Origin: Siphonobacter curvatus
Lineage (GTDB): Bacteria > Bacteroidota > Bacteroidia > Cytophagales > Spirosomataceae
Length of the DNA: 64,000 bases
Direction of reading: 5' to 3'
Assembly: GCF_002943425.1 (NCBI RefSeq)
Contig: NZ_PTRA01000002.1
Coordinates: 186,090 to 250,089, forward strand
Positions 19,865 through 33,519 of the stretch are shown here, piece after piece (within the stretch, counting starts at the first letter, position 1; each line of letters starts with the position of its first letter). Position numbers and translations under genes: made by a program. A model generated the notes under the pieces. The model was given only the letters and a program-made list of their open reading frames with translations, had not been told where the DNA came from and did no database searches.

Positions 19865-19911
19865 AGAAGAGTTTACCTAGGTATTTTATGAGGGACATCT
19901 CATGCTAGCAA

Positions 19912-20285
19912 TCGACAGCTATTAACTAGTCTAATAGGATCACTATTTCGTCCTGCTGAGTTGGCTGGTCATTTAGTCCATATCGCGAACGCCACTCTTT
20001 TCATCCTGCTCAGGGCCACCGTGTTACGGATGAAAAAGGCGGCTTTTCGCGATAGGACGGGGTTCGGATTTAAGCCGTCCATGAAGGCCTTCGACTATAG
20101 TTTAATAACAATAAACTATCAACTAATGAAATGTCAGAAGAAGAAAACCTCCCCGCCCGTGAGCAACGGAACGACCTACGACAGCCGCAAAGCGGTGGCC
20201 CAAAGCGGGCTGTCGTGAGGCGTGGAGGGGCTCACGGGCTACTAGTCGGTCGTCGCTAAAGGACCGAACTCCGTCTAGGTGGATA
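19912..20285 (+). ncRNA. Putative structured RNA element, copy A
   Basis: This 374-base non-coding stretch shares at least nine short conserved blocks, in order, with 29092-29540. They are ATGCTAGC (19912), TTTCGTCC (19946), GGCTGGTCATTTAGTCC plus TAT (19963-19983), GCGATAGGACGGGG (20049), GCCGTCCATGAAGG (20074), GAACGACCTAC (20169), CGTGGAGGGG (20221), CTACTAGTCGG (20239) and GTCTAGGT (20273). Between blocks the sequences differ but still pair: TATCGCGAA with TTCGCGATA, ACGACAGCC with GGCTGTCGT, CGTGAG with CTCACG, and CGGTC with GACCG. Differences that keep pairing only as G·U on the plus strand argue that this strand is transcribed. It lies between two convergent genes. I do not recognise the family. 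Confidence 0.65.
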
Positions 20286-20331
20286 ACGAGATTTTAATGT
20301 AAATACTATACCCCTGCAATTCAAAACTACC

Positions 20332-22849: not shown

Positions 22850-24526
22850 TTAGTAACCCGGATTTTGAGTCAGTTTGGGGTTGACGCGGATCTCCAGGGC
22901 GGGAATCGGCCAGAGGTACTGACGGCTGGCGTCAAAGCTGCGTTGAGCCACGATTTTAACGTCAGTGCCAAAACCGGAGTAGTCCGCCAGTCCATCCGTA
23001 TCGATGGGAGTAACCCCGGGGAAGGGCCATTTCGAGCGGTTCTGGGCCGCCGGATCGGGTAAGCCAATGACGGGTCGGGTGAGTGCCTTTTCCGCCAGTC
23101 GCCAGCGGATGAGGTCCATGTATCGCAAGCCTTCTTTGGCAAATTCCACCCGACGCTCCCGACGAACGACTTGCCGCAGTTCGTTCGCGTTGGTAGTTGT
23201 AATGGCCGGGTATGCCGCCGGATCGTCTACCCGCACCCCGTAAGCCCGAGCCCGTACTTGATTGATGGCCTGCAAGACCGTCGGGTCGATTTCGCCGAGC
23301 TCGATTTTCGCTTCGGCGTAGGTAAGCAGTACTTCCGCGTAACGGATCAACAGGGCATCGGCGTCTTCGCTCTGCTTGTCGGCCCAGCTTTGATCGATGC
23401 CTTTTTTCCAGAGAAAACCTGTAAAACTGGCAAATGCCGCGACGCTTCGGGTATCCTGATTGGCCACTCGCCGATTTTCCTTGCTACTGAAAACGGTAAC
23501 CGAATCGGGGTGCGGCTGATAGGTATACCCCAGCCAGTTCGTACCGAATTCAACAACCGTAGCCGTTAAGCGGGGATCGCGGTTTTTAAAGGGTTCCCGC
23601 GGATTGTACAGCGGAGATTCGTCGATGGGCTTGCCATCCCGGCATTCGTAGGCGTCAACCAGCTCCCGGGTAGGAATCTGGGCTCCAAAACCGCCGGCAA
23701 TCCGAGGCAGCTGATCCCGCACGGGTGTGCCCGTTGTAAATACCTTCTGCATTTCATCCCGGGGAATACTGAGAATGATTTCCGGACTGGTTTCGCCAGG
23801 TTTCAGAAAGAGCTGACCGTAATTTGAATGCAGACTGTATACCCCGGTCTGCTGCATAATGGCCTGCGAAGCGTCTTTGGCTACTGCCCAGTTGTTCGTA
23901 TATAGAGCCGTACGGGCTTTGATGGCCAGGGCTACCCCTTTAGTCAACCGGCGTACAGCCGAAGTGGGGTACGAAGCGGGCAGGTTCGCAATGGCAAAAT
24001 CAAGCTCATTGAAAACGAAGGTCAGGACTTCATTGCGGGGCGTACGGGTCACGCTATACGATTGTTCGAGTACCAGCGGGTCGGTAATGAGCGGAACGTC
24101 GCCAAAATGCGTCAACAGTCTGGAATACTGGTACGCCCGGATGAGTCGCATTTCTGCCTCCAGTCGCGTCAGTATGGTCGCGGGTGTATTCGCCGCCGCC
24201 CGGTCTTTGTTGGCCAAGAAGGAATTCGCCCGGGCAATGGCTTTGTAGCAGACTGTCCAGTAAGCCTGTGCCGTGGCATCTTCAGAATTCATCGTGCCGA
24301 AGGTGACCGCATTGCCCAGCATACCCCGATGCCAGTAATTATCCGTGAACTGTTCATTGTCGTTCCCCCAGAAATCCAGGCGATACAGATCGTTCACCGC
24401 CAGTTCGAGTTCAGTTTGATTGGCGTAGAACGTAGCCGTGGAGGGTTCTGACAAAGGATTCAAGTCAAGTGAGTTGCAGGCGGTAAGGCCTATAACTCCC
24501 AGCAGAAGAAACAGGTATTTTTTCAT
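22850..24526 (-). CDS. SusD/RagB-type nutrient-binding lipoprotein
   Basis: A 558-residue lipoprotein with lipobox L-T-A-C at Cys17. SusD features are the N-terminal TPR-like helices (AEMRLIRAYQYSRLLTHFGD) and the C-terminal block RRERRVEFAKEGLRYMDLIR, ending NPKLTQNPGY. It would cap the SusC channel at the cell surface and bind an oligosaccharide or other polymer fragment. The gene lies 23 bp downstream of susC in the same operon. No glycoside hydrolase is nearby, so the substrate cannot be guessed. Confidence 0.95.
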   Translation of the reverse strand: MKKYLFLLLGVIGLTACNSLDLNPLSEPSTATFYANQTELELAVNDLYRLDFWGNDNEQFTDNYWHRGMLGNAVTFGTMNSEDATAQAYWTVCYKAIARANSFLANKDRAAANTPATILTRLEAEMRLIRAYQYSRLLTHFGDVPLITDPLVLEQSYSVTRTPRNEVLTFVFNELDFAIANLPASYPTSAVRRLTKGVALAIKARTALYTNNWAVAKDASQAIMQQTGVYSLHSNYGQLFLKPGETSPEIILSIPRDEMQKVFTTGTPVRDQLPRIAGGFGAQIPTRELVDAYECRDGKPIDESPLYNPREPFKNRDPRLTATVVEFGTNWLGYTYQPHPDSVTVFSSKENRRVANQDTRSVAAFASFTGFLWKKGIDQSWADKQSEDADALLIRYAEVLLTYAEAKIELGEIDPTVLQAINQVRARAYGVRVDDPAAYPAITTTNANELRQVVRRERRVEFAKEGLRYMDLIRWRLAEKALTRPVIGLPDPAAQNRSKWPFPGVTPIDTDGLADYSGFGTDVKIVAQRSFDASRQYLWPIPALEIRVNPKLTQNPGY

Positions 24527-24549
24527 AACGAAACCGTGTCTGAAAGAGC

Positions 24550-27500
24550 TTAAAAACGTAAGGTGATACCGCCCAGAAAGGTGGTGACGATGGGGTAGGA
24601 GGAGTTCGCGGCTTCCGGATCGGCGTAGCGGGGGAAGTGGTGAATCCGGAGTACGTCGTTGGCCGAAACGTACAATCGCGTCGATTGCAGGCCCAGTTTC
24701 TTGAGCACGTCTCCTTTTAGGGTATAGCCCAGCGTGATGTTTTTGACGCGGAAATACGATCCGTTGATGAGCCAGAAATCAGACGCTTCGTAATTGGCTG
24801 CCAGCGATTGTGTTGAAAGCCGCGGATACCGGGCCCGGGCGTTAACCTCCGCCGCATTGGTTTTGCTCCAGAATTTACCCACAATTTCCTGCGGTACGTT
24901 TCCAAAAGCTTCCCCAAAGGGTCGTACGATTTCATCGGGCAGGCGACTGAGTTTTTTACCAACGCCTTGAACAACCAAGCCCAGATCAAAACCCTGATAA
25001 TCCAGTCGAATCGTGCTACCGTACAGAAAACGGGGGAGGGAACCGCCCAATAGTACGCGATCATCGGGCGTGATGCGGCCATCGTTATTGATATCCACGT
25101 AGCGAACATCGCCCGCCGTAACGTTGGTATTCAGTCGCGGCGATTGACGGGCTTCTTCGGCGGTTTGGTATAACCCCGCCGAGCGGTAGCCAAACCATTC
25201 GTTGTACTCACTGCCTTTGAACGTAGACTGACTACCCAGAATCTGGGTACCTTTCAAATCCACAATTTTTGATTTGGAATCGGAAATGTTGAAGGCAATG
25301 GAATAGTTGACTTTCCCAATTCGATCCCGCCAGCTGGTTTCCAGTTCCCAACCTTTCACGTCCATGATCCCGGCATTTTGTTGTGGCCGTTCATAGCCCA
25401 GGTACAGCGGAATGTCCAGAGCCAGCAGGATGTCGTAGGTGCGTTTATGGTAGACGTCAATGGCTGCACTCAGTCGGTTTTTGAAGAAGGCGGCGTCAAT
25501 ACCCGCATCCAGCGTCCGGGTAGTTTCCCAGGAAATATTCTCAACGGCATAGTCCACCTGACCACCCCCGTTCAGCGGAACGACTACCCCATTTTGGTAG
25601 AAAAGAGCATTGCTAAAACTGATGGTCGCCTGATACGGATAATTCCCTATTCGCTCATTGCCCACCACGCCGTACGAACCGCGTACTTTCAGAAACGATA
25701 GCCAGGGGGTATTCCGCAGAAAGTTTTCTTCGGAAATCGTCCAGCCCCCTGAAATCGAAGGGAACAAAGCATCGCGGTGCTGGCGATTGAAGCGGGAAGA
25801 CTGATCATAGCGTAGGTTACCCTGGATGTAGTACTTGTTCTGATAATCGTATTTGAGTCGACCAAATACCGAACGCAGGGCGGCCTCACTGGCACTGCCG
25901 GAGTTATCGCGTAACTCCTGCGAACCGGCATTCAGGTACGGAAAATCAATCAGGGCAAAACCACTCCGCGAGGCCGTCAGCGTTTCGCCGAAATTATACA
26001 GTTCTTCATAACCCGCCAGCACATCCACGTTATGGCCCGAGCCGATTTCTTTGGAATAGTTGGCTAAAAACTGACCCGTGATATTGGTCGTTTCCTGACG
26101 TTTTTCGTTCAGCGTCGTGCGGGGCTGATTACTAAAGGCACTCGGACTACCGTCGAGGTTCGTAAACGTGATTCGCTTGGAAAAAGCTTTGCCCCGGTCA
26201 AAATCGAAACTCGGAGCGACTAGGGCCGTCAGCGTTAGTCCATCGATGGGTTTGAAGTTGAAGGCCAAGCGGCCCATCACCTGATTGTAGTACTCGTTGT
26301 TGGTTCCCCCTTCGTTGAGCTGAGCAATCGGGTTGCGACCATCTTTGCCCAGGGCGTATCGACCATCTGAATAGTAATCATCAAAAATTGGAGGCATCAA
26401 CCGGGCTTCGTACAAGGGGTTGACCACGGGCGAAAGCGACTTGGTCCGCTTGTAGGTGACATCCAGCGTAATGCCCAGTTTCGAATTAACCTGTAAATCG
26501 TTGTTGACCCGAAGCAGGTACCGCTCATAGTTATAGTTGTCGTAGAAGGCACCGGATTTCGTGTAGCCCAGCGAGGCCTTGGTTTTAATTTTACCCGTTC
26601 CCATGGTAAACACCAGATCGTGGCGGACCCGGGGGGCCGTCGCCCGCGTCAGAATAGTTTTCTGCCAGTCGGTATTGGCAAAGGGAAAGACGTCCGGTTT
26701 TTCCCGGTGGTACTGATCAAAATTCGTGATATAATCGGCCGCGTAAGGACCCGTCGAGGACCCGTCGTTGGTAGCCTGCTCGTTAAACAGCCGCATGTAC
26801 TCCGGAGCATTGACGTAAGCGGGCAGGGCCGTCGGCTTCTGAAAACCGTATTCGGCGTTGTATTCAAAGCTCGTTTGGCCTTCCTTGGATCGTTTGGTTG
26901 TTACCAGAATAACCCCAGCAGCTCCCCGCGATCCATAAATGGCGGCCGAAGCGGCGTCTTTCAATACGGTAATATTCTCCACGTCATTCGGATTGACGTT
27001 ATCGATCGTACTGACCGGAACGCCATCCACAATGATCAGGGGAGCGTTGGTGCCCAGCGTTGTAATGCCCCGGATGAGAATGTTGGAGCTGGCTCCGGGG
27101 GCTCCACTGCTCCGGGTGACCGATACGCCCGCAATACTGCCTTGTAAGGCTTCCGAGATTTGAACGGTCTGACGCCCCGCTACATCTTTAGCATCAATGG
27201 TGGAAATGGCCCCCGTCAGATCCTTTTTCTTTTGTGTTCCGTAGCCGACCACAACGACTTCATCCAGCGATTGTTCGGTTGCCTTGAGGGTAATGTTCAG
27301 GACAGCCTGATCTGTGATTAGAATGTCTTGGCTCTGGTAGCCAATGGAAGAGAAGGTAAGGGTAACTGACCCCGTATCCGAGATGGCCAGTCGGTAATCG
27401 CCTTGAGCGTCAGTAGTCGTACCCCGGGACGTTCCTTTGATGGCTACACTGACACCCGGTAGCTCCTTGGCCTTTTCATCCGTGACGCGACCCGTGATGG

Positions 27501-27573
27501 AACGGCTCTGAGTAAAAGCAGGCAACAGGATACTTAAGTATAGCAGACTGCTTAGTAGTAGTTTTAAATGCAT
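24550..27573 (-). CDS. SusC/RagA-type TonB-linked outer-membrane protein
   Basis: A 1007-residue receptor. It has a signal peptide (LLLSSLLYLSILLPAFTQS), then a carboxypeptidase-D-like regulatory domain at about 25-105 (ITGRVTDEKAKELPGVSVAI). The SusC hallmark SLDEVVVVGYGTQKKKDLTG is at about 113-132, followed by a plug with ILIRGITTLGTNAPLIIVDG, and a beta-barrel ending in FLGGITLRF. It imports a ligand captured by the SusD partner, using TonB energy. First gene of a three-gene operon and divergent from the PKD membrane protein at 27741, which may regulate it. Confidence 0.95.
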   Translation of the reverse strand: MHLKLLLSSLLYLSILLPAFTQSRSITGRVTDEKAKELPGVSVAIKGTSRGTTTDAQGDYRLAISDTGSVTLTFSSIGYQSQDILITDQAVLNITLKATEQSLDEVVVVGYGTQKKKDLTGAISTIDAKDVAGRQTVQISEALQGSIAGVSVTRSSGAPGASSNILIRGITTLGTNAPLIIVDGVPVSTIDNVNPNDVENITVLKDAASAAIYGSRGAAGVILVTTKRSKEGQTSFEYNAEYGFQKPTALPAYVNAPEYMRLFNEQATNDGSSTGPYAADYITNFDQYHREKPDVFPFANTDWQKTILTRATAPRVRHDLVFTMGTGKIKTKASLGYTKSGAFYDNYNYERYLLRVNNDLQVNSKLGITLDVTYKRTKSLSPVVNPLYEARLMPPIFDDYYSDGRYALGKDGRNPIAQLNEGGTNNEYYNQVMGRLAFNFKPIDGLTLTALVAPSFDFDRGKAFSKRITFTNLDGSPSAFSNQPRTTLNEKRQETTNITGQFLANYSKEIGSGHNVDVLAGYEELYNFGETLTASRSGFALIDFPYLNAGSQELRDNSGSASEAALRSVFGRLKYDYQNKYYIQGNLRYDQSSRFNRQHRDALFPSISGGWTISEENFLRNTPWLSFLKVRGSYGVVGNERIGNYPYQATISFSNALFYQNGVVVPLNGGGQVDYAVENISWETTRTLDAGIDAAFFKNRLSAAIDVYHKRTYDILLALDIPLYLGYERPQQNAGIMDVKGWELETSWRDRIGKVNYSIAFNISDSKSKIVDLKGTQILGSQSTFKGSEYNEWFGYRSAGLYQTAEEARQSPRLNTNVTAGDVRYVDINNDGRITPDDRVLLGGSLPRFLYGSTIRLDYQGFDLGLVVQGVGKKLSRLPDEIVRPFGEAFGNVPQEIVGKFWSKTNAAEVNARARYPRLSTQSLAANYEASDFWLINGSYFRVKNITLGYTLKGDVLKKLGLQSTRLYVSANDVLRIHHFPRYADPEAANSSYPIVTTFLGGITLRF

Positions 27574-27633
27574 AATTTTTTCTGATAATTAGAGGTTCTT
27601 CTGCAATTTTACCGGGCTTGTGATTTAACTTAA

Positions 27634-27641
27634 CAAACATA
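27634..27641 (-). promoter_or_regulatory. -7 element of the SusC operon
   Basis: On the minus strand this reads TATGTTTG, a full match to TAnnTTTG. It lies about 60 bases before the susC ATG. The -33 region has only TTTC at about 20 bases spacing, so the promoter may need an activator. Confidence 0.5.
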
Positions 27642-27740
27642 ATTTTGGACTATACGGTGTTGAAAGCAGGAGGGGTATCCAATCCCTTATACAGAATTAT
27701 GGACAAGGTAAGTATCTGATGTACAGTAATGTAGAAACTA

Positions 27741-29075
27741 ATGGTTACGGATAAAGGCCAGGAGCAAACCTGGAGTTATTACTACTTGGAGCGTTGTTGC
27801 CAGCGAGTCGCCGAGACGTATGGGAGGGAAGAGTGGTCAGAATGGACGAACGGAGACTATATTTTGCTGAGCCGAATCCTGTTTCGGAAGACGCGGGTAC
27901 AAATCAGTCCCAATACGCTGAAGCGAATTTTTGGAAAAATCAAGACGGATGCCCGGTATTATCCGCAAAAAGCGACCCGCGACGCCCTGGCTGCGTACGC
28001 GGGCTTCGGGGATTGGGACCAGCTCGTGGAAGCGGTGGCGGAGGAGGAATCCCTTTCGGAGGTAGAAGAACCCCTGATCGAAGAAGGACTCCATCAAAAT
28101 GTGCCCGAACAAAACGAAAGTCCGGTTCCGAAACGATCCGTAAAACGTACGCTTTTGTGGACGGGGATGAGTCTACTGATCCTGCTGGTCCTATGGGCAG
28201 GCTGGAAAATCAGTCAGGGGTCAACTCCGAAAGGCACGCCTTCCCTGATCTGTAAAAACCCGCTCGGCGAAAATCCGCATTCGGCCATTTTTACGGTACA
28301 AACACCCCATGAACGAGCGGATGATTATTCGCTGGATTTCGGGGATGGCAAGCGTACATCGGTGAATCCGAACACGACTGTCTATAACCATTATTACGAA
28401 GTGCCCGGCCGGTATCAGGCTGTTTTAATACAGGGCAATGAACCCCTGGATTCCACCACGGTGTACCTGCCCACGCAGGGTTGGGCGGCGACGGCTTATA
28501 TGATGTACGACACCTCGCGGGTATATCCCATTGACGTACCGGCCTTATTTACGGGTGGAAAGCGTACCATCAACACGCAGGAGCTGTCTCAGGCGGGTAT
28601 TGATACCAATCGTACCTTTTTTGTAGAATTTACCAATGCTCAGCAAACGGGTATTAGCGGGGATAACTTTGAACTACAAACGCATTTGATCACTACGCCC
28701 GACCGAACAGGTATTCGGTGCTCTCAGGTAGATGTTCGGATTATGGGGGAGTCATCCAACCATATGTTTGTCGTCACCAAACCTGGCTGTGTCTACTGGT
28801 CAAAGCTGAATTTTTCGGAAAAAGGATGGTCCGGGCGACAGGAGGATCTAAGTTTCCTCGGAGCCGATTTCCGTCGCGGAGGTACGTTACGCTTGCTGGT
28901 AAAAAATCAGCAGGCCCGGCTGTACATCAATGACCGACAGGTGTTCGAAAGCACTTACACGCATCCCTTACAGCAAATCTACGGCATAAGTATCCGCTTC
29001 TCCGGAGTAGGGACAGTCAGCTCGCTGAATTTGAAGGATTTGAATACGGGGAAAATGTTTCGGGGGAGTTTTTAA
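27741..29075 (+). CDS. Single-pass membrane protein with HTH-like N-domain and PKD domain
   Basis: A 444-residue protein without a signal peptide. Residues about 30-105 hold a block common in Cytophagales (ISPNTLKRIFGK, then YYPQKATRDALAAYAGFGDW), which looks like a small helix-turn-helix. An acidic linker follows, then one membrane helix at about 137-155 (LLWTGMSLLILLVLWAGW). A periplasmic PKD domain covers about 175-240 (DDYSLDFGDGKRTSVNP and YEVPGRYQAVL), and a jelly-roll-like C-terminal domain covers 290-444 (LRLLVKNQQARLYINDRQVF). The layout suggests a ToxR-like sensor regulator acting on the divergent SusCD operon; that function is inference. Confidence 0.75.
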   Translation: MVTDKGQEQTWSYYYLERCCQRVAETYGREEWSEWTNGDYILLSRILFRKTRVQISPNTLKRIFGKIKTDARYYPQKATRDALAAYAGFGDWDQLVEAVAEEESLSEVEEPLIEEGLHQNVPEQNESPVPKRSVKRTLLWTGMSLLILLVLWAGWKISQGSTPKGTPSLICKNPLGENPHSAIFTVQTPHERADDYSLDFGDGKRTSVNPNTTVYNHYYEVPGRYQAVLIQGNEPLDSTTVYLPTQGWAATAYMMYDTSRVYPIDVPALFTGGKRTINTQELSQAGIDTNRTFFVEFTNAQQTGISGDNFELQTHLITTPDRTGIRCSQVDVRIMGESSNHMFVVTKPGCVYWSKLNFSEKGWSGRQEDLSFLGADFRRGGTLRLLVKNQQARLYINDRQVFESTYTHPLQQIYGISIRFSGVGTVSSLNLKDLNTGKMFRGSF

Positions 29076-29091
29076 TAAGACCTTTGACGGT

Positions 29092-29540
29092 ATGCTAGCT
29101 GATGCTCAAGCCTGTACCGTCAGTTTTCGTCCCCTAAAAGACGGCTGGTCATTTAGTCCGTATGCATTCCATGCCGGGCATCGCATGCCGGCACGCCCAC
29201 CGCTGACTTGCTCTTATTCCAGGCTAACACATTGCCGAGGGAGCCACTATGGAATGAACGGTAGGCGACTTGAACCCCAGAATGCGATTCCCGGAATGGA
29301 ATTCCAGCATGGCATGCGATAGGATGGGGATCAGGTTAATGCCGTCCATGAAGGTATTTTATTTTTTCTAGCAACCCTCAACTAGGGTCAAGGGATGAAA
29401 ATATCTTCCGCATGTGGACCGCAGAACGACTTACTATAGCTGCAATGGCGGGGGCTCTGAGCAAGCTATCGTTAGTCGTGGAGAGGACCACATGTTACTA
29501 GTCAGCCAGTTATGAAGACGAAACCCAGTCTAGGTTAATA
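29092..29540 (+). ncRNA. Putative structured RNA element, copy B
   Basis: A 449-base partner of the element at 19912-20285. The same blocks occur in the same order: ATGCTAGC (29092), TTTCGTCC (29125), GGCTGGTCATTTAGTCC plus TAT (29143-29163), GCGATAGGATGGGG (29316), GCCGTCCATGAAGG (29341), GAACGACTTAC (29424), CGTGGAGAGG (29477), TTACTAGTCAG (29495) and GTCTAGGT (29528). It is longer mainly because the stem between the third and fourth blocks is 152 bases instead of 65. Pairing is kept with other bases: ACGACT/AGTCGT, ATAGCT/AGCTAT and GTGG/CCAC. A candidate promoter, TTTC (29058) then GACCTTTG (29079-29086), would start RNA near the first block. It too lies between convergent genes. Confidence 0.65.
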
Positions 29541-29583
29541 AAACATTTCAGTTGAATCAAACAGCAAAATCAAAGCCACCACC

Positions 29584-32500
29584 TTAACCTTTCCCATTCA
29601 TATACTGACTAGGCGTGATGCCAAACTGCTTCTGGAAATCACGCGAAAAGTTCGTCGGCAAACTGTACCCGACCAAGGCGGCGGCTTCATTGACTTTGTA
29701 GTGCCCCGTAGCCAGTAACTCAGCGGCTTTTTTCAGGCGGGAAAGATTAATCAATTCATTTGGACTTAAATCCGATAAACCCTTGATTTTGCGGTAAAGC
29801 GTCGGCCGACTCATGTTCATAAGCCTGGAAAGCTGATCCACGTTCAGTTCCATGTCGATAATGTGATCGTAGATGACTTGATTCAGTTGTTCCAGAAAAG
29901 CTTTATCCGCCGGTGTATACGCCATCCCCTTGAAGGGCGTTAGCGGCGAGCGGGCAAAGTACTCTTTCACCCGGTTCCGGTTGGTCAGTAAGCTTTCGAT
30001 CTGGGCTTCCAGGTGAATCACCGAAAACGGTTTTTCCAGGTACGCATCCGCTCCGACTTCCAGCCCTTCCACTTTCGACTGTAGCGAGTTCTTCGCCGTG
30101 AGCAGTACTACGGGTACGTGACTGTAAGCCAAATCTGATTTGATAGTCCGGCACAACTCAATGCCGTCCATAACGGGCATCATGATGTCGCTGATGACCA
30201 ATTGCACGTTCTCCTGCTGCAAAACTTCCAGAGCCTGCTGACCGTGGTAGGCGATGAGGACATTATAACGGTCACTGAATTCTTGCTGAATGTACGCACT
30301 GATTTCCCGCTGATCCTCGACGAGTAAGAGCGTCGGTTTGGAAGGGTCCAGGTCCTGCGGAGCTAGTACGTCTTCTGACGGAGGTTCGTTGGTTGAAAAG
30401 GATTGAAAGTCCAGCTCATTTTCCTGATGAATCGGTAAACTCACCCGAAAACAGTTGACCTCCAGTCGGTCGGTTTCCAGCGTCAGTGTACCCTTGTGCA
30501 GCTCCGCCAGCGTTCGGGACAGGGGTAAGCCAATGCCCGTACCGGGTTGCTGGTCAGTTTCCTTAATTCGGTAGAAGGGTTCGAAAATCTTATCTTTTAA
30601 CTCCTGCGGAATGCGGTAGCCATCATTACTGACCTCAATTCGGAACAAATCATCTTCACTACTAAACGGCAGCAATTTCACCAGAATCGAGGAATCGGCG
30701 TACTTAATGGCATTACTGAGCAGATTACTCAGGATTTTCCGTAGGGCTTCTTCATCGACAAAGCCGTGCAGGGTAATCCTTGGTAATTCCAGTTTGAAGC
30801 TAAGTTTCCGCTCGTCCGCCGCGGGCTTGAACCAAATCCAGAGTTCGTTAAGCAAGGCATTAATGTCGGTATTAGCAAAATGGAGACGAATGCTCTGGGA
30901 TTCGGCTTTTCGAAAATCCAGTAACTGATTCGTTAACTCGATCAGACGATTGGTATGTTTTTTCATCATGTGCAGGCTTTCACGTAAAAGGGGGTCCTGA
31001 ATTGGCTGAAACAACAGTTTATCCAGGGGTAACTTAATGAGCGTTAACGGTGTACGAATTTCGTGGGCAACGTTGGTAAAAAACTCAATTTTGCTCGTAT
31101 AAATGGCCCGTTCCGTTTCTATCTCAAGCGATTTTATCTGCCTTTTGTTCTTTTCCGTAACGGCTAAATGATAGTATCGGAAAATGATGAGAATAATGGC
31201 CAAAACCAGACTGGCATACAGAACATACGCCCAGGGCGTCGCCCAGTAAGGAGGCAGAATCTGAATGCGAAGTACGGTTTCTTTGGGATTCCAGATGCCG
31301 TCATTATTCGAACCCTGTACCCGAAAACGGTATGACCCCGCCGGAAGGTTCGTGTAATAGATCTTTCGGTTATTACTTAAATGAATCCAGTTTTGATCCA
31401 TTCCCTCGAGCATGTACCGGTACTGATTGATCGGAGCATTGGTATAACTCAGGGCCGCTACATCCAGACTCAACGTAGACTGTCGGTGGGAAAGCACCAG
31501 GGCCGCAGTATGGGTAATGGACTGCCGCAGAATCGAGTCTTTCGCTCCGATCCGTACTTCCTGGTTATTCACCTGTAACCCGGTGATGTACACGGGCGGA
31601 ATATACTGATTCGGGTGAACCGATGAAGCCGGATCCCAGTGAACGAGTCCTTTGACCGTACCGAAATAAAGACTTCCATCGGTGTCTTTAAACGAGGAGT
31701 TGTAGTTAAACTGCTCGGTGGGTAAGCCGTGGGCGGTGAAGTAGTGCTGCCACTGGTTTCGCTGGGGATCAAACCGGGCCAGACCCCGGCCCGTTGAAAT
31801 CCATATGTATCCGAAGCGGTCTTCCTCTACCCGGAAAATCTGATTATCCGGCAAACCATTTTCCACGGTATAATGCGTGAAGCGGTGTTGGGCCGGATCA
31901 TAACGGGTCAAGCCCCCTTCGGTACAAATCCAGAGCTGATGGTGACGATCTTCGTAGAGGTGATTGACGTAATTGGTACGAAGACCCGAACGGGTGGTAA
32001 AATGCCCCCGTTTGCCGGTTCGTTCATTCGCGTAATAGATGCCATGACCGTAACTTCCTACCCAAAGCGTACCGTCACTGGCTTCGTGAATGGTTTGGGT
32101 CTGAATATTAAAAAAAGGTTCAGCGGCAAAATCATCCTCTTTAGGCCGGTAGCGGAAGAGGCCATTCCAGGTACCCACCAGAATATCACCATTGCGGCGT
32201 TTATACAGGGTGACGATAAAGTCGCTGCTAAAGTGGCCGGGCTGGGGGGCAGATCGGTACCGACGGATCACTTTTTCGGTTTTCAAATCCATCAGGTCAA
32301 GGCCGTGTTCGAGCGTACCAATCCATAATCGGTCTCCATCGACCAGCAATCCATGAACATTCTGATAACTGATTCCGTGCTGACCCGAACTGGGGCGAAA
32401 GGATTTAATATGCCCCGTGGCCAGATTCAATTTGTTCAAACCTGCGTCTTCGGTACCGATCCACAGGTTCCCCTGTCCGTCCTTCTGAATGCTGTGTACG

Positions 32501-33519
32501 ACGTTGCCGCTCAGGCTGTTTTGTCCCGGTAAAGGCAGGTATTTGGTAAAGTGGGTCAGGTGATCGGAGTAGTAATTAACGCCCCCAAAGGCCGTACCAA
32601 TCCAGATTCCCTTTTCCCGATCCTGGTACAAACAGGCAATCGCATTGTTCGTAATCGAATAGGGATTTCCGTACTGGGCCTGAATGTGCGTCAGTTGTTG
32701 CGTGCAACTATTGTAAACGTAGATGCCCGATTCGGTACCAATCCAGAATTCGTACGGCGATTTTCGGAGTACGGAGTTGACCCTCATTTCGAGGCCGTTG
32801 CTGCCCGTTAAAGGAACCGTCCGTCGCTGCTGGATGTGGTGGAGCAACACCTGATTACCCTGCCGTAGTAGCAGCGTCGTATCAGCCATGGAGTACATCG
32901 TCTCAATGCGGGCATATACCTGGCTTGGGTGGGGGAGTTCCTCAAAACGATCCGAACGAGCATCGTACCTTTTCAAATGACCATTCTCCGTCGTTACCCA
33001 AACCGTACCTCGCTCTGAAACGTGTAGGAAGATCGACTGATCTTGAGCAAAGGGATAGACTTTAATCCGGTTGTGCTGATAACAGTAAAGCTTAAAGCCT
33101 GCAATAATCCATACGCGGTGTTGGGCGTCCGTTTGTAAGAAACGGATTTCATTGGCTGGAACACCCGTAAAACGCTGGAATGTTTCCAGGCGGGGATCGT
33201 ACCAGTAGACGCCCCTGGATGTACCCACCCACAGGCGATGCTGCGGATCTTCGCACAGGCTATAAACGGTATTACTTCCCAGACTCAGCGAATCCTTCAC
33301 CGAGTGATGGAAAACTTTCACCGTATGCCCATCGAAACGATTCAGACCATTGCGGCTGCCAAACCACATAAAGCCCCGCTGATCCTGCAAAATACAGGTG
33401 ATGGTATTGCTGGAAAAACCGTCGGCAACCTGGTAGGATTTAAAGTTGGAATAGTGGGGTTGAGCCCCGGAACCGATTCCCCACAGAAGCAGGAAGACTA
33501 AAAAAAGATAACGCCTCAT
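29584..33519 (-). CDS. Hybrid two-component system sensor-regulator (HTCS)
   Basis: A 1311-residue one-protein two-component system. It has a signal peptide (1-19), a periplasmic double propeller of Reg_prop repeats at about 35-635 (for example GFMWFGSRNGLNRFDG and LWVGTSRGVYWYDP) and a Y_Y_Y domain at about 690-755. One membrane helix (763-783) is followed by HisKA with His819 (VAHEIRTPLTL), HATPase, a receiver domain with Asp1111 (DIMMPVMDG) and an AraC-type DNA-binding domain (1205-1311). HTCS proteins bind an oligosaccharide in the periplasm and switch on the neighbouring SusCD locus. The divergent SusCD at 33775 is the obvious target, 255 bp away. Confidence 0.95.
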   Translation of the reverse strand: MRRYLFLVFLLLWGIGSGAQPHYSNFKSYQVADGFSSNTITCILQDQRGFMWFGSRNGLNRFDGHTVKVFHHSVKDSLSLGSNTVYSLCEDPQHRLWVGTSRGVYWYDPRLETFQRFTGVPANEIRFLQTDAQHRVWIIAGFKLYCYQHNRIKVYPFAQDQSIFLHVSERGTVWVTTENGHLKRYDARSDRFEELPHPSQVYARIETMYSMADTTLLLRQGNQVLLHHIQQRRTVPLTGSNGLEMRVNSVLRKSPYEFWIGTESGIYVYNSCTQQLTHIQAQYGNPYSITNNAIACLYQDREKGIWIGTAFGGVNYYSDHLTHFTKYLPLPGQNSLSGNVVHSIQKDGQGNLWIGTEDAGLNKLNLATGHIKSFRPSSGQHGISYQNVHGLLVDGDRLWIGTLEHGLDLMDLKTEKVIRRYRSAPQPGHFSSDFIVTLYKRRNGDILVGTWNGLFRYRPKEDDFAAEPFFNIQTQTIHEASDGTLWVGSYGHGIYYANERTGKRGHFTTRSGLRTNYVNHLYEDRHHQLWICTEGGLTRYDPAQHRFTHYTVENGLPDNQIFRVEEDRFGYIWISTGRGLARFDPQRNQWQHYFTAHGLPTEQFNYNSSFKDTDGSLYFGTVKGLVHWDPASSVHPNQYIPPVYITGLQVNNQEVRIGAKDSILRQSITHTAALVLSHRQSTLSLDVAALSYTNAPINQYRYMLEGMDQNWIHLSNNRKIYYTNLPAGSYRFRVQGSNNDGIWNPKETVLRIQILPPYWATPWAYVLYASLVLAIILIIFRYYHLAVTEKNKRQIKSLEIETERAIYTSKIEFFTNVAHEIRTPLTLIKLPLDKLLFQPIQDPLLRESLHMMKKHTNRLIELTNQLLDFRKAESQSIRLHFANTDINALLNELWIWFKPAADERKLSFKLELPRITLHGFVDEEALRKILSNLLSNAIKYADSSILVKLLPFSSEDDLFRIEVSNDGYRIPQELKDKIFEPFYRIKETDQQPGTGIGLPLSRTLAELHKGTLTLETDRLEVNCFRVSLPIHQENELDFQSFSTNEPPSEDVLAPQDLDPSKPTLLLVEDQREISAYIQQEFSDRYNVLIAYHGQQALEVLQQENVQLVISDIMMPVMDGIELCRTIKSDLAYSHVPVVLLTAKNSLQSKVEGLEVGADAYLEKPFSVIHLEAQIESLLTNRNRVKEYFARSPLTPFKGMAYTPADKAFLEQLNQVIYDHIIDMELNVDQLSRLMNMSRPTLYRKIKGLSDLSPNELINLSRLKKAAELLATGHYKVNEAAALVGYSLPTNFSRDFQKQFGITPSQYMNGKG

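Follow-up and report, generated by a model that had tools for sequence, protein, structure and literature searches.

The window, i.e. the whole 64,000-nucleotide stretch of the Siphonobacter curvatus genome analyzed here, carries two copies of a folded non-coding repeat together with what looks like a polysaccharide-utilization locus (22850-33519), in which SusD (22850-24526), a TonB-dependent receptor plug protein (24550-27573) and a hybrid two-component regulator with an AraC domain (29584-33519) are encoded. Copy 2 of the repeat adjoins the regulator gene. Four promoter-like sites are predicted around copy 1 (19865-20331), against 0.5 +/- 0.7 in shuffled sequence, and none is predicted around copy 2.

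Copy 1 spans 344 nt of the plus strand (19946-20289), from TTTCGTCC at its 5' end to GTCTAGGTGGATAACGA at its 3' end, and copy 2 spans 421 nt of the same strand (29125-29545), its hairpin 1 being longer and including GCATNNCATGC palindromes; both extents follow from the family boundaries and an own-genome search (for copy 2, G000:C2:215405-215592). Conservation sets in sharply at TTTCGTCC (19946 and 29125) among 64 copies carrying that motif, and stops just past GTCTAGGTGAATAACGA (about 20289 and 29545) among 56 motif-carrying copies. The initial annotation, which began the element at 19912, had located it correctly but set its start about 33 nt too far out.

Within copy 1, the 5' arm (19946-20072, plus strand) comprises an end repeat and hairpin 1 (GTCCATATCGCGAA...TTTTCGCGATAGGAC), and its reverse complement matches the 3'-arm covariance model; the inter-arm spacer (20073-20142, plus strand) lies between the covariance-model hits and holds the block GCCGTCCATGAAGG and an A-rich tract; the 3' arm (20143-20289, plus strand), defined by model R1 and pair counts, contains the helix GCCCGTGAGC/GCTCACGGGC, the inner stem ACGACAGCC/GGCTGTCGT and the other end repeat. 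Model R1, the 3'-arm covariance model, which was built from 22 copies with both window copies among them, scores 119.2 bits on copy 1 (20143-20251) and 108.2 bits (E 3.6e-28) on the portion of the copy 2 3' arm that it matches (29397-29507, plus strand). In local comparison the two copies align at 67% along a 201-nt segment (E 6.5e-9 for a search of the window) and at 95% along one of 21 nt (E 0.002). A global alignment, in which the 5' portion of copy 2 is set in the wrong place, brings out 3' blocks that are common and in the same order with variable stretches between them. The two stretches are thus related and block-conserved, as first described.

Architecture and helices of the repeat

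Full-length copies measure roughly 340-450 bp and are ordered as end repeat, hairpin 1, spacer, hairpin 2 and second end repeat. The 5' end motif occurs 28 times, against 0 in a reversed control. Terminal inverted repeats are present that are imperfect, about 30 nt long and of unequal clarity among copies; e.g. in the copy L003 GTCCCGCA pairs with TGCGGGAC. We read a full copy as an inverted duplication that has since diverged: on the opposite strand, the 3'-arm model also picks up the copy 1 5' arm (19963-20072 minus, 41.5 bits, E 2.2e-9); in 23 of 53 full-length copies the similarity between the 5' arm and the reverse-complemented 3' arm exceeds that in every one of 100 shuffles; and the apical loops of hairpin 1 (GCTCNAGGCCACCGCATTGC) and hairpin 2 (GCAATGCGGTGGCCTNGAGC) are, by eye, near reverse complements. 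This inverted-arm signal is patchy: the other 30 of the 53 do not beat all shuffles in the pairwise arm comparison, copy 1 being among them by a narrow margin (22 vs a shuffle maximum of 24), and in the window only its 5' arm is matched by the model, the 5' arm of copy 2 giving no hit.

In many copies the stems are lengthened by short palindromes such as CCATTCCATGG and GGGCATYSCATGC. Independent spreading of these small palindromes was rejected, since 38 of the 45 CCATTCCATGG sites in the window genome and all 23 GGGCATYSCATGC sites lie inside known copies (reversed controls 4 and 7). Three tandem CCATTCCATGG sites at G000:C4:224580-224618 lie outside the tabulated copies and possibly mark a further degenerate copy, and tandem GGGCATNCCATGC palindromes occur at 1486-1542 of L193, a Siphonobacter stretch (genome G002) that gives no element profile hit.

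Covariation was scored in the 22 insert-free 3' arms out of 59 extracted. In this set 92.4% of cells are paired, and double changes occur at 15 of the 29 pairs; the double-change cells number 51, against 12.9 +/- 2.9 in shuffles (0/500), and the covariation score of the 3' arm is 0.279 vs 0.127 +/- 0.010. Further pair types in the 3' arm are no more numerous than in shuffles (83/500). For helix P2 (GCCCGTGAGC/GCTCACGGGC in copy 1) 33 distinct versions were counted, with 291 of 330 cells Watson-Crick, and the inner stem has two unrelated versions topped by the same apical loop GCAATGCGGTGGCC, a comparison that covered 55 of the 59 extracted 3' arms. With stem covariation this strong, the structural claim of the initial annotation, that stems are kept with different bases, was right. 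A hairpin is missing in several copies, such as L031, L037 and L038. A crossing helix, CCTCTCC/GGAGAGG, is 87% paired in 22 copies and covaries little (1/6 pairs, one cell). Within the window (20148-20230) a CCTCCCC/GGAGGGG helix crosses the well-supported GCCCGTGAGC/GCTCACGGGC helix with no linker, so that simultaneous formation of the two is hardly possible; across the family the crossing helix covaries little.

Copy number, distribution and orthologous sites

The two copies first reported are both real but amount to a sample of a repeat family, since about 47 distinct copies are present in the S. curvatus genome, counted as stretches with a profile hit at E <= 1e-3 that were fetched and merged; the own-genome search with copy 1 as query returned 66 matching pieces. 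The table of 43 own copies referred to below omits four found later (L125, L140, L164 and L165). No ORF of 100 aa or more lies within either window copy, and 42 of the 43 tabulated copies lie between called ORFs, the remaining one (L026) overlapping one ORF by 29 nt with the simple ORF caller used; the element is non-coding, as had been stated.

Looking for further copies in relatives as well as in this genome, which the initial annotation had suggested, brought out at least 43 distinct copies in Siphonobacter sp. BAB-5405 and a single remnant copy in a third Siphonobacter (G001), where it occupies the orthologous site of own copy L036. Of 59 genomes searched at the DNA level, the window genome included, two contain the repeat at E 1e-6, i.e. 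the window genome and BAB-5405. From a public genome collection, which may omit the window genome's own records, the 5' core pattern retrieved 23 stretches; 18 are BAB-5405, and the 5 from elsewhere (L054, L058, L066, L070 and L073) give no element profile hit, nor does the viral contig L076 reached by the same pattern. The 3'-arm covariance model, run over 222 family genomes with strict filters and a limited number of candidates scored per genome, hit at least three, two Siphonobacter and one weak match, and missed the G001 remnant. The weak match is a single 3'-arm hit (E 7.5e-4) in L201, from a genome (G131) of another genus of the family. Apart from this hit, the repeat appears from these searches to be confined to Siphonobacter. 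A search for plasmid carriage gave no plasmid match; for phage carriage, one 37-nt phage match (E 8e-4) was taken as chance. The literature searches made for this analysis brought up no paper on such a repeat family in Siphonobacter.

Orthologous sites could be compared with both flanks in BAB-5405 for 39 of the 43 tabulated copies; L022, L038, L039 and L097 could not, L038 having a BAB-5405 copy beside its left flank. All 39 sites are occupied in BAB-5405 by an element profile hit, and flank identity is 89.3-99.8% (median 94.5%). Since every comparable site is occupied, the positions would predate the split of the two species. No target-site duplication was found, and the 39 comparable sites include no empty site for comparison.

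The interiors at these fixed sites have been replaced. When each copy was compared with all others, its ortholog came out as the closest in 16 of 39 cases, with one further tie (11 of 28 pairs in an earlier run); every ortholog here competes with about 90 other copies, which biases the test toward the latter. Ortholog alignment scores, at 2 points per matching base with 2.0 as identity, are at least 1.4 per nt in 8 of the 39, 0.7-1.4 in 10 and below 0.7 in 21, low scores being partly due to deletion. Six of the 39 copies (L003, L006, L012, L017, L035 and L040) are inverted relative to their orthologs by alignment and seven by profile strand, the extra one (L030) being a mosaic. Copy 1 has BAB-5405 flanks of 98% and 94% and an element of 71%, both hairpins having been replaced as units; copy 2 shows mild change only (89% over 1083 nt). 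The pair L002/L100 is almost identical save for insertions and a hairpin 1 base altered on both arms, with the middle nearly unchanged. The cleanest flip, L006/L112, is inverted at 88.5% over 321 nt and takes in sequence past the usual 3' end. On the L112 side, in BAB-5405, the usual ends are flanked on the outside by inverted repeats of greater length (about 30 nt, judged by eye), which may have mediated the inversion.

Origin of the repeat and alternative readings

The two stretches probably belong to a MITE-like family of non-coding palindromic repeats that is restricted to Siphonobacter; its members keep their positions, and their interiors would be rewritten through exchange among copies and through hairpin-templated mutation. 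The repeat is short, non-coding, dispersed and multi-copy, and its copy number and inverted ends would place it in the MITE-like class. We infer that it spread by transposition before the sister species split, with a transposase that was lost or is yet to be recognized, and then fell dormant, no movement being seen since the split. Ectopic recombination or conversion between copies by way of the shared blocks would swap whole hairpins, both arms at once; replication template switching inside hairpins would keep the arms complementary; and recombination across the inverted ends would flip copies in place. For the proposed exchange a donor was looked for among 52 hairpin-1 sequences, and none was identical, the closest match along the whole length being 96% (76 of 77 nt). 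Template switching in DNA replication can produce compensatory stem changes and create and maintain stems (PMC8794818). It had been argued originally that decaying transposon copies would not show such a pattern; the argument does not hold here, since stems are replaced at fixed sites and template switching can make compensatory changes (PMC8794818). The 3'-arm covariation is also expected from template switching, and covariation alone thus does not single out an RNA.

The Siphonobacter repeat works most like the BOX elements of Streptococcus pneumoniae and the BrickBuilt elements of Porphyromonas gingivalis, the latter organism belonging to the same phylum as Siphonobacter. BOX elements are described as modular, strongly folded intergenic repeats of 67-637 bp that are judged parasitic and now dormant, about half of the insertions being common to all strains (PMC3049150). 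Compared by description, the two are alike in being modular, folded, intergenic, variable in length and largely static, whereas BOX grows by modules and the Siphonobacter repeat swaps whole self-complementary hairpins and flips in place (PMC3049150). BrickBuilt is a one-species intergenic MITE of 19 copies whose ends are small inverted repeats and whose interior is repetitive; it shares with the Siphonobacter repeat the intergenic location, inverted-repeat ends and repetitiveness, but its interior is a 23-nt minisatellite rather than two inverted hairpin arms (PMC4596501). The GTAG- and CGTC-tagged REPs are likewise dispersed palindromes, reported as single hairpins of 20-40 bp, with CGTC repeats lacking a dedicated transposase (PMC3733652). 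The Siphonobacter end contains CGTC, four bases that may match by chance, and its unit is about ten times longer than these REPs as described and has two arms instead of a single hairpin (PMC3733652). Mobilization by a REP/RAYT system was rejected, given a unit of about 340-450 bp vs 20-40 bp and 0 matches to the Y1 transposase PF01797 in the window genome; PF01797 has 3 matches in BAB-5405. In this search, which covered the PF01797 family, no transposase whose ends match those of the repeat came to light.

The designation as a candidate new structured RNA holds insofar as the element is structured and has no Rfam match, but an RNA gene is not supported over a transposon-like repeat, given the occurrence in both orientations, the inverted duplication, the confinement to Siphonobacter and the strand tests. 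A transcribed structured RNA, multi-copy in the manner of a mobile ribozyme or guide-RNA element and with its fold selected on one strand, is therefore improbable. Such an RNA would fit the strong 3'-arm covariation, the many versions of P2, the one apical loop atop two unrelated stems and the conserved unpaired blocks, which a functional RNA would also have, but it fits less well with copies that lack a hairpin and with further pair types no more numerous than in shuffles. Orientation to genes is mixed: 26 of the 43 own copies are in co-directional contexts (10 sense and 16 antisense, read from the context table), 11 in convergent and 6 in divergent, and a gene-linked regulatory RNA of the ordinary kind is unlikely for this reason. 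GT over AC leans to the plus strand in P2 (12 vs 4, p 0.08) and in the inner stem (17 vs 9, p 0.17), neither helix being significant alone and the combined counts being 29 and 13, in copies with at least 6 Watson-Crick pairs (46/63 for P2; all 45 for P3b); a ratio of 27 vs 5 arises only on post hoc omission of P3b pair 1 and is not relied upon. Against this, single mismatches in Watson-Crick-only folds of the whole element give GT 29 vs AC 44 (p 0.10; by arm, 7/17 in the 5' arm, 10/9 in the 3' arm and 14/19 spanning), and folding energy slightly favors the minus strand (-0.341 vs -0.332 per nt), the plus strand being lower in 37 of 89 and the minus-strand lean having p 7e-5 against shuffles. 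The Rfam search of the window gave 0 matches at the gathering threshold, in agreement with the original placement outside known RNA families; with the E-value limit relaxed to 10, only sub-threshold matches appear, led by WLE3 (E 0.0082, 23 bits vs a threshold of 50). None of the strand, orientation or Rfam evidence singles out a transcript. The helix order can be drawn in an HDV-like ribozyme topology, a candidate that was dropped on finding insert-free copies without a linker between GGAGAGG and the next helix. Least probable of the alternatives is a terminator or attenuator, in which the minus-strand helix CCTCTCC/GGAGAGG runs into TTTTCTTCTTCT and could be mutually exclusive with the alternative GCCCGTGAGC/GCTCACGGGC that it crosses. 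A terminator-like site is indeed predicted once in each window copy, at corresponding places in the element (20171-20151 and 29426-29406, minus strand), where 0.4-0.5 per region are expected in shuffles, and the crossing helix is well paired, but it barely covaries, its loop is about 70 nt and the orientation of the neighboring genes differs. The predicted terminator-like hairpins of both window copies (minus strand) adjoin an A-rich tract on the plus strand.

About as improbable as the structured RNA is a system of cassette exchange or inversion, in which a dedicated recombinase acting on the end repeats keeps exchanging and flipping the interiors. The inverted orthologous copies noted above, the 23 of 39 copies (one tie included) for which the ortholog is not the closest match in spite of intact flanks, and the well-conserved ends would all be accommodated. 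The breakpoints of inversion vary, however, that of L006/L112 including sequence past the usual 3' end, and L038 and L019 carry deletions between short direct repeats (by eye), which point to ordinary recombination or slippage. In its broadest form, i.e. a dedicated Siphonobacter exchange system that rewrites some 40 fixed intergenic structured cassettes by swapping hairpins and flipping, with structure kept while sequence turns over and with a function that may depend on shape alone, the idea is an outside chance.

The copies of the repeat look more like dormant mobile DNA than like a new RNA gene. Strong covariation and block conservation here occur in an apparent mobile-DNA palindrome, and consequently covariation among many paralogous copies in one genus is not by itself evidence of an RNA gene. 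The 39 natural orthologous site pairs offer material for measuring how hairpin interiors are exchanged, how copies flip and how complementarity is kept, and they open the template-switching account of compensatory changes to a direct test in a bacterium.
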